From positions 1 to 38,255 of the forward strand of contig JAKIWQ010000011.1 in assembly GCA_022749935.1 (NCBI GenBank): 38,255 nucleotides of DNA, written 5' to 3'. The notes under the pieces are model-generated. The model worked only from the letters and a program-made list of their open reading frames with translations, did not search any database and had not been told where the DNA came from. Position 1 is the first letter of the stretch. Each line of letters starts with the position of its first letter. Shown here piece by piece: positions 23,546 through 34,965 of the stretch. This stretch comes from Thermoplasmata archaeon. GTDB lineage: Archaea > Thermoplasmatota > Thermoplasmata > Lutacidiplasmatales > UBA184. A program made the translations under genes and the position numbers.

Positions 23546-24427
23546 CTAGCCGCGGACGACGTTGTACAAGCTCAGCTCGGTCAGGAGGCTGTTCGGCTGG
23601 CCGAGGTAGATGAACGACAGCGTGCAGGCGTTGGGCGTCGTGAAGCACCAGGCGGGCGCACCGTGGAAGTCATCACAGTCGGGACCCGGCCCGCAGTCTC
23701 CGTGATGTCCGTCGTTGTTCCCTCCGACGTCCGGGTCGAAGGGAGAGGACGTGTGAATGTACATGATGAACGTGTCCCCGTTCTGCAAGAACCCGATGGT
23801 GGTGGTGTTGATCGGTACGAAGATCCCGAACCGGTTGTACAGGGTGCTGTACGAACCGCTGGGCACGAAGCTCCCGCACTTACCCAGATGGGGCGCGTTG
23901 GGGCCGGGCCCGGTCGAGCTGCCCGGGAACCAGGTCATCTGGTCGAGCGTGCCGTTGACGAACACCGTCCCGTTGCAGAGGAATACCAATTCGACCTGAC
24001 TCAGCGGAATGTTCGCGGGGGAGTGGGCCGAGATGATGAACTGGGTGGAGTTCATGGAGGAGAAGTCGCCCGTGGGGGGCGCGCCGTTGCACTCCGTGTT
24101 GTGGACATTCTTCCCGGTCACTCCCCCGGTGACGTTGGCGAAGCCGCCGTTCCACCAGGCGGTGAAGTTGTTTCCGTAGTGGTTCCCGTTCTCGGCGGTG
24201 ATCGGTCCCGCCGGAAACGCGCCCGCGATCCCGTAATTCCCGCCGTTCTCATAGTAGTCGTCGGTCACGTTCGTGGTCGACATCGTGACCTGGGTGTTGT
24301 AGTTCAACCAGGCGGGGAACCAGGGGAGACAATCGGTGGGGTCGCCCCAGACGGGGTTACTCGTACCCGAGCGGATCGAGAACGAGACGGACGGCGCGGG
24401 AGCCGGCGTATTGATCTTGAACGTCAC
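23546..24427 (-). CDS. Pilin/archaellin-like surface protein, mature domain (frameshifted from its signal peptide)
   Basis: About 293 residues from the GTG at 24427 to TAG. The first residues VTFKINTPAPAPSVSFSIR look like the end of an archaeal pilin N-helix followed by the exported domain. The rest is rich in Asn, Gly, Thr and aromatic residues with many N-glycosylation sites (NGTVFVNGT, YNTQ, MNSTQF) and several Cys (near DCLPWF, TECNGAP, GKCGSF, DCGPGPDCDDF, WCFTTPNACT) that could form disulfides. The matching class III signal peptide lies just upstream in another frame (24424-24531). One missing or extra base near 24427-24440 would join them. Alone, this frame has no export signal, so expression from the GTG is doubtful. 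Confidence 0.75.
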   Translation of the reverse strand: MTFKINTPAPAPSVSFSIRSGTSNPVWGDPTDCLPWFPAWLNYNTQVTMSTTNVTDDYYENGGNYGIAGAFPAGPITAENGNHYGNNFTAWWNGGFANVTGGVTGKNVHNTECNGAPPTGDFSSMNSTQFIISAHSPANIPLSQVELVFLCNGTVFVNGTLDQMTWFPGSSTGPGPNAPHLGKCGSFVPSGSYSTLYNRFGIFVPINTTTIGFLQNGDTFIMYIHTSSPFDPDVGGNNDGHHGDCGPGPDCDDFHGAPAWCFTTPNACTLSFIYLGQPNSLLTELSLYNVVRG

Positions 24428-24531
24428 AGGAAGACCCCCGCGACGATGGTGATGGCCACCAACAGGATCGTCGCGATGATCGTGGCGACTCCCCGAGAGG
24501 TCCGCCGTCGAGAACTGGGGGTGCGCCGCAC
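24424..24531 (-). pseudogene. Class III signal peptide and N-helix of the pilin-like gene
   Basis: A GTG-started 35-residue frame: a basic leader (RRTPSSRRRTSRG) followed by VATIIATILLVAITIVAGVF, the classic N-terminal helix of Thermoplasmata and haloarchaeal type IV pilins, which is cut by the prepilin peptidase before the helix. It then meets TGA at 24424-24426. The following pilin domain continues in the next frame. A TATA box 26 bp upstream of the GTG shows this is the true transcription start of the gene. A run of five G (minus strand) near 24432-24436 is a plausible slippage site. Confidence 0.8.
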
Positions 24532-24553: not shown

Positions 24554-24560
24554 GATAATC
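24554..24560 (-). promoter_or_regulatory. TATA box for the pilin-like gene
   Basis: The minus strand reads GATTATC, centred 26 bp before the GTG at 24531, implying a leaderless transcript that begins with the signal peptide. Confidence 0.6.
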
Positions 24561-24633
24561 AACTTTGTGCCTCGGGCGGGCGGTTCGATTGTCTCACTTC
24601 GCGGTACCGACTTCGGATTCACCTCGATGGAAA

Positions 24634-24748: not shown

Positions 24749-25180
24749 TTGATCTTTGGAGTCGTGGTGATCCTCGCGGCGTTCGTCCTCCTATGGGTCT
24801 CCGCCCCCCAATGGGACGGCCCCCTTCGCCCCGCCGGACCCCGCCCGACCGCTCAGTCCTATGTCTACTTGAACGACACTTCCTGGCAATTCACCGGCGC
24901 GACGGGTTGCTGGTCGCCGATCATCAGCATCGGAGGCACCATACCCATCGGCGGAATTTACGAGGCCGCCGTCGACCTCCCCTACCCCGGAGGGGCGAGT
25001 GGGCCCGCCTGCACCGCCCAATCGGTCCACGTCAACTCCGCGGGGTTCGCCCTGGTCGACTCGACCCTCCCCCAGACCGTCGGGCCGGGTCATGCCACGT
25101 GGATCTACGTCAACGTCACGGTGCCGGGGGCCCAGTACACCGGGGCCCTTACGCTTCTCATCACGGTGTCCTCCCCATGA
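24749..25180 (+). CDS. Membrane-anchored exported protein, paralogue 1
   Basis: At least 143 residues: an N-terminal membrane helix (FGVVVILAAFVLLW) followed by an exported beta-rich domain with TSWQFTGATGCW, GGTIPIGGIYEAAVDLPYPG and a late YVNVTVPGAQYTGALTLLI strand. Two Cys may pair. TTG at 24749 is the only standard start codon in frame, yet it removes a basic stretch (SDRRRAPRKRRDR) that would precede the helix. A GGAGG followed 6 nt later by ATC (24677-24679) raises the possibility of a non-standard start there, adding 24 residues. The next gene encodes a protein with the same plan. Function unknown. Confidence 0.65.
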   Translation: MIFGVVVILAAFVLLWVSAPQWDGPLRPAGPRPTAQSYVYLNDTSWQFTGATGCWSPIISIGGTIPIGGIYEAAVDLPYPGGASGPACTAQSVHVNSAGFALVDSTLPQTVGPGHATWIYVNVTVPGAQYTGALTLLITVSSP

Positions 25181-25211
25181 CCGGACTGGGCCGATCGAGG
25201 GGGGTCCTCGT

Positions 25212-25697
25212 TTGAGGTGGCCCAGGAACGGGTTCTGGGGCGTGGCGGCCGGATGCATCGCCGCGTTGGCGATCGTCGTGGTGGTTCTCTTCGTGGTTCC
25301 CTCGGCCGCCCCGCCTCCCACGATGACGGTGGAAGGGGTCGACTGGCAGATCGTGCAGCCACCGCCGACGAACGGAACGAATGAGTTCGCCGCACTCTGG
25401 ATCAATCAGACGGGCCCGGTCTGGGGTTTTCCCATTCACATCCGCCCCGGGGGTGCCTTCAACGATTCGTTGATCATCAATAGCAACAGCCCGGAGGACC
25501 TGCCGATCTGCCGGGCCACGATCACCCCACCGTTTTTCATTGTCTCGACCACACCAACCCTCCCGATGTTGACCACCCACTACGAGGATAACCTCCTCAC
25601 GCTGACCATCTCGGTCCATGTCGGCGCCGGGGCTACCGTCCTCGGGTCCGGAACGATCTACGCGACCAGCGCGACCCTCGCCGGCTGCAACACGTGA
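25212..25697 (+). CDS. Membrane-anchored exported protein, paralogue 2
   Basis: A 161-residue protein with a basic start (MRWPRNGFWG), one membrane helix (about 10-31) and an exported beta-rich domain. It shares with its upstream neighbour the order VDWQ, a Gly-rich PIHIRPGGAF turn, a single Cys followed by a strand (ICRATITPPFFIV) and a final LTISVHVGAGATVLGSGTI segment, so the two look like a tandem duplication. A second Cys is near the C-terminus. The start is TTG at 25212, preceded by a purine-rich GAGGGGGG about 8 nt upstream; the gap to the previous gene is 31 bp, so they form an operon. No function is recognised. Confidence 0.65.
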   Translation: MRWPRNGFWGVAAGCIAALAIVVVVLFVVPSAAPPPTMTVEGVDWQIVQPPPTNGTNEFAALWINQTGPVWGFPIHIRPGGAFNDSLIINSNSPEDLPICRATITPPFFIVSTTPTLPMLTTHYEDNLLTLTISVHVGAGATVLGSGTIYATSATLAGCNT

Positions 25698-34865: not shown

Positions 34866-34893
34866 AAGCAAGCGTCGTCCCCGGCTTCCCCGC

Positions 34894-34965
34894 AGCCGCC
34901 AGAGAGGATTGAACTCCCGACCTGCTGATTACAAATCAGCCGCTCTACCGCTGAGCTATGGCGGC
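34894..34965 (-). tRNA. tRNA-Thr (anticodon TGT)
   Basis: A 72-nt complete cloverleaf without intron. Acceptor arms GCCGCCA and TGGCGGC pair over 7 bp; D-stem GCTC/GAGC; anticodon stem GCTGA/TCAGC with loop TTTGTAA, so positions 34-36 are TGT (reads ACA); five-base variable loop; T-stem GGGAG/CTCTC with loop TTCAATC. The discriminator is T, usual for archaeal tRNA-Thr. CCA is not encoded (TGCG follows), so it is added enzymatically. Confidence 0.96.

Follow-up and report, generated by a model that had tools for sequence, protein, structure and literature searches.

The locus described here raises the question of whether a pilin-like gene that is split between two reading frames represents a means of controlling a surface protein or an ordinary gene from which a base is missing. 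The gene lies on the minus strand of a 38,255-nucleotide stretch of DNA from a Thermoplasmata archaeon (hereafter the window), which forms contig C3 of a draft genome (G000) of 1.79 Mb in 97 contigs. The closest relatives carrying the pilin-like gene are likewise registered as metagenome-assembled Thermoplasmata archaeon. The features discussed below are as follows.

23546 to 24427, minus strand: head domain, open over 293 codons in the -1 frame, including the stretch WGDPTDCLPWFPAWLNYNTQ
24424 to 24427, minus strand: site of the lesion, where the window has one G fewer than the homologues' invariant Trp codon TGG and reads TGA
24424 to 24531, minus strand: N-terminal piece, from GTG at 24531-24529 to TGA at 24426-24424, with a class III signal peptide and N-helix
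24435 to 24439, minus strand: G5 run within the codons GCG GGG GTC (Ala-Gly-Val), not the site of the break
24554 to 24562, minus strand: TATA-like box TTGATTATC, with the GTG start about 26-27 bp downstream
24749 to 25180 and 25125 to 25697, plus strand: adjacent pair of small protein genes, divergent to the pilin
34894 to 34965, minus strand: tRNA-Thr (TGT)

We first consider the two pieces. The N-terminal frame translates as VRRTPSSRRRTSRGVATIIATILLVAITIVAGVFL followed by the stop, and its predicted processing site lies after Gly14, between SRG and VATIIATILLVAITIVAGVFL. The head frame opens immediately after this piece, in the -1 frame relative to it; its translation starts VTFKINTP and is Cys- and Asn-rich, with 8 Cys and 7 N-glycosylation sequons. 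A preliminary description of this DNA had reported a class III signal peptide and N-helix, a frame ending at TGA 24424-24426 and a mature domain continuing in the next frame from about 24427. We found the same TGA, and a head frame that is open between 24427 and 23546. The N-terminal piece matched TIGR02537 (NCBIfam, arch_flag_Nterm), the archaellin/type IV pilin N-terminal domain, at 26.0 bits against a curated cut-off of 20 bits.

We then compared the gene with its syntenic orthologues in two relatives, G005 (L002/L031) and G035 (L003/L032), which are 83% and 77% identical to it, respectively, and each of which is a single open frame. Gene order around the pilin is conserved with contigs G005:C104 and G035:C19. 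Both pieces can be aligned in register with these intact orthologues, and the split of the gene into two frames is therefore well beyond chance. The comparison at the junction, which the preliminary description had called for, located the break exactly. The codons read GTC TTT CTG TGG ACC TTC in G005 and GTG TTC CTG TGG AGT TTC in G035, and GTC TTC CTG TG ACG TTC in the window, so that CTG TGG in the orthologues stands against CTG TG here. The affected residue, Trp36, does not vary among the eight homologues that were aligned from the start codon onwards. The break therefore falls within the Trp codon, 8 bases past the G5 run. Between the run and the TGA the frame is still the original one, giving the residues AGVFL as in the orthologues, which places the break after the run. 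The run itself lies at 24439-24435, three bases away from the position given earlier (near 24432-24436). It had also been proposed that an added base near the TGA, or an added G in the run, would join the two frames; the orthologues support the former, at the Trp codon, and not the latter.

The intact form of the gene is the rule in the genus. A family profile run on 78 genus genomes found more than 40 homologous loci, each of them one open frame without an internal stop, and only G000 had its two pieces in different frames. Matches to Pilin_N across the genus likewise contained no internal stops among the matches listed. These results demonstrate that no split arrangement is conserved in the genus.

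The identity of the family was assessed from its N-terminus and its head. All eight homologues matched TIGR02537 (best E 6e-9), and the G005 orthologue scored above the cut-off. The Pfam family Pilin_N (PF07790) has a gathering cut-off of 25.2 bits; the two window pieces joined reached 17.4 bits and the G005 orthologue 21.1 bits, both below it, and the gene was therefore filed under the broader TIGR02537. The head domain matched no Pfam family. Among solved structures, archaeal pilins gave the best sequence matches, confined to the N-terminal part and with E values of 0.045 or weaker. AlphaFold modelled the G005 orthologue with low confidence (mean pLDDT 52), as a helix at residues 9-41 followed by strands. 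Like archaeal type IV pilins and archaellins, the protein has a basic N-terminus, a predicted RG/V processing motif, a hydrophobic H-domain past the cleavage site and, in the low-confidence orthologue model, a beta-rich head. It differs from them in that this head has about 290 residues and 8 Cys and belongs to no Pfam family, and in that the window copy is frame-broken. From these sequence features we infer a type IV pilin-like surface protein with a presumed function in a pilus, whether as a major, minor or adhesive component.

A comparison can be drawn with the CdiP pilus of Cuniculiplasma (Thermoplasmatales), whose major pilin CdiPB has been solved (PMC12448462). The likeness is one of architecture: both have a class III signal peptide and an N-helix with a head that is beta-rich, in the present family according to the low-confidence orthologue model, and in both the pilin genes lie apart from the machinery genes (PMC12448462). 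Two T2SSE-family ATPases were found outside the window, on G000:C89 of the draft genome. A search of the draft for a prepilin peptidase gave no PF01478 match and one PF06847 match below cut-off, on C36; the prepilin peptidase of the lineage may be divergent or may be missing from the draft.

Upstream of the gene, the TATA element placed earlier at 26 bp from the start held up: TTGATTATC at 24562-24554 lies about 26-27 bp from the GTG, a position consistent with a leaderless transcript. The motif GTTGATWA occurs once in the window, at this box. Most pilin homologues in the genus carry a GTTGATAA-like sequence just upstream, at the position corresponding to TTGATTATC, which suggests a leaderless promoter shared by the pilin-like family across the genus.

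The divergently placed small proteins each combine a single hydrophobic segment at the N-terminus with a domain that looks extracellular, and neither matched a Pfam family. Part of the protein encoded at 25125-25697 is conserved beside the pilin in G005 and G035. Beyond about 25.6 kb, synteny with G035 is otherwise largely lost; the 73 bases at 34893-34965, covering the tRNA-Thr, are 100% identical to G035.

Selection on the head was estimated from 292 codons aligned with no gap. dN/dS was 0.11 between the window and G005, 0.21 between the window and G035, and 0.14 between G005 and G035. The head domain carries no second lesion and shows no sign of relaxed selection. These results indicate that purifying selection has acted on the head and, together with the lack of a second lesion, that the missing base is either very recent or not real.

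Very probably, then, an otherwise normal pilin-like gene carries a lesion of one base that is private to this assembly, either a sequence error or a very recent loss. Among the options raised in the preliminary description, the indel class alone was supported, with one G missing relative to the orthologues' Trp codon. As to the cause of the missing base, we judge the chance of a base error in the draft metagenome assembly to be about even. A screen for frame breaks was run on about 0.77 Mb of G000 against relatives, covering about 450 segments and about 138,000 aligned residues; in a control, 41 of 60 planted single-base breaks were recovered. Within those residues no real break other than that in the pilin was found; indels are thus not a general problem of the assembly, and the idea that it is error-ridden throughout was rejected. 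Each of the other candidates that survived filtering traced to a shadow or antisense frame or to an adjacent gene, with MptA-like and SecE/Spt5-like genes among those involved; a candidate in G018 was antisense too. The lack of other breaks, and the position of the lesion in a GG pair rather than a homopolymer, speak mildly against an error. An error in a draft metagenome assembly would, however, also look like this, as a lone lesion in a well-constrained gene.

A very recent, real loss-of-function mutation, in which the pilin is broken in this strain and the other pilins of the genome carry on, has by our judgement a chance somewhat short of even. The close family was found by a strict search in 21 of 61 relatives, a patchy distribution in the genus that makes it look dispensable, and two other intact pilin-like genes are present on G000:C19; a real loss would thus be tolerable. 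The absence of any other frame break in the screen also favours it. On the other side, an undamaged head with dN/dS values of 0.11-0.21 demands that such a mutation be very young.

It is highly improbable that the split is real and functional, whether as a population-level on/off switch, through recoding or through coupled translation across the GTGA. Phase variation, in which slippage in the G5 run would switch the pilin on and off, was given only a very slight chance. Eight bases separate the run from the TGA downstream of it, and in bacteria surface structures are typical targets of phase variation (PMC11868660). The gene resembles the reviewed cases of homopolymeric-tract phase variation (PMC11868660) in encoding a surface protein and in having a frame break near a G run. 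It differs from them in that the tract is only 5 long, off the break site and not conserved. The frame change lies past the run, in the Trp codon, where no long repeat tract is present, and a length change in the run would instead yield AGGLPVTF; G5 slippage was therefore rejected as the cause, and with it the phase-variation option of the preliminary description. Furthermore, two intact homologues (L004 and L006) have a G5 run of the same length, and such runs are ordinary in the window, which holds 128 exact G5/C5 runs. Among the titles listed by a literature search, none was a case of phase variation in an archaeal pilin.

Programmed -1 ribosomal frameshifting, also raised earlier, is a reading to which we give hardly any weight. 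The head does lie in the -1 frame, and selection acts on it; -1 recoding is known in archaea: fucA1 of Sulfolobus solfataricus, like the gene in the window, consists of two adjacent pieces in the 0 and -1 frames (PMC8211752). The A-AAA-AAT slippery site of fucA1 (PMC8211752), however, has no counterpart in the N-terminal frame here, which contains no X-XXY-YYZ heptamer, and the arrangement is shared by no homologue, all of which are single-frame. Equally remote is a split gene whose head is translated separately by stop/start coupling, for although GTG 24427-24425 overlaps TGA 24426-24424, this GTGA overlap is a by-product of one G fewer in CTGTGGAC, and the head alone would have neither the signal peptide nor the helix that export and assembly require. 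Readthrough of the TGA was rejected, since the 0 frame past it is full of stops and the head lies in the -1 frame.

Under the reading of a single missing base, the gene of the relatives is one open frame, probably expressed from a leaderless transcript, with a class III signal peptide and a hydrophobic helix ending in AGVFLW, followed by a Cys- and Asn-rich head predicted to consist of beta-strands. In the window assembly one G is gone from the conserved Trp codon at the helix end; as written, the gene would yield a 35-residue signal/helix peptide stopping at the TGA, and the head would either not be made or not be exported.

The apparent split thus most probably comes down to one missing base and not to a new regulatory device. 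Beyond this, the locus documents a conserved, uncharacterised pilin-like family, with a TIGR02537 N-terminus, a Cys-rich head outside any Pfam family and a promoter that appears to be conserved across a genus of uncultured Thermoplasmata.
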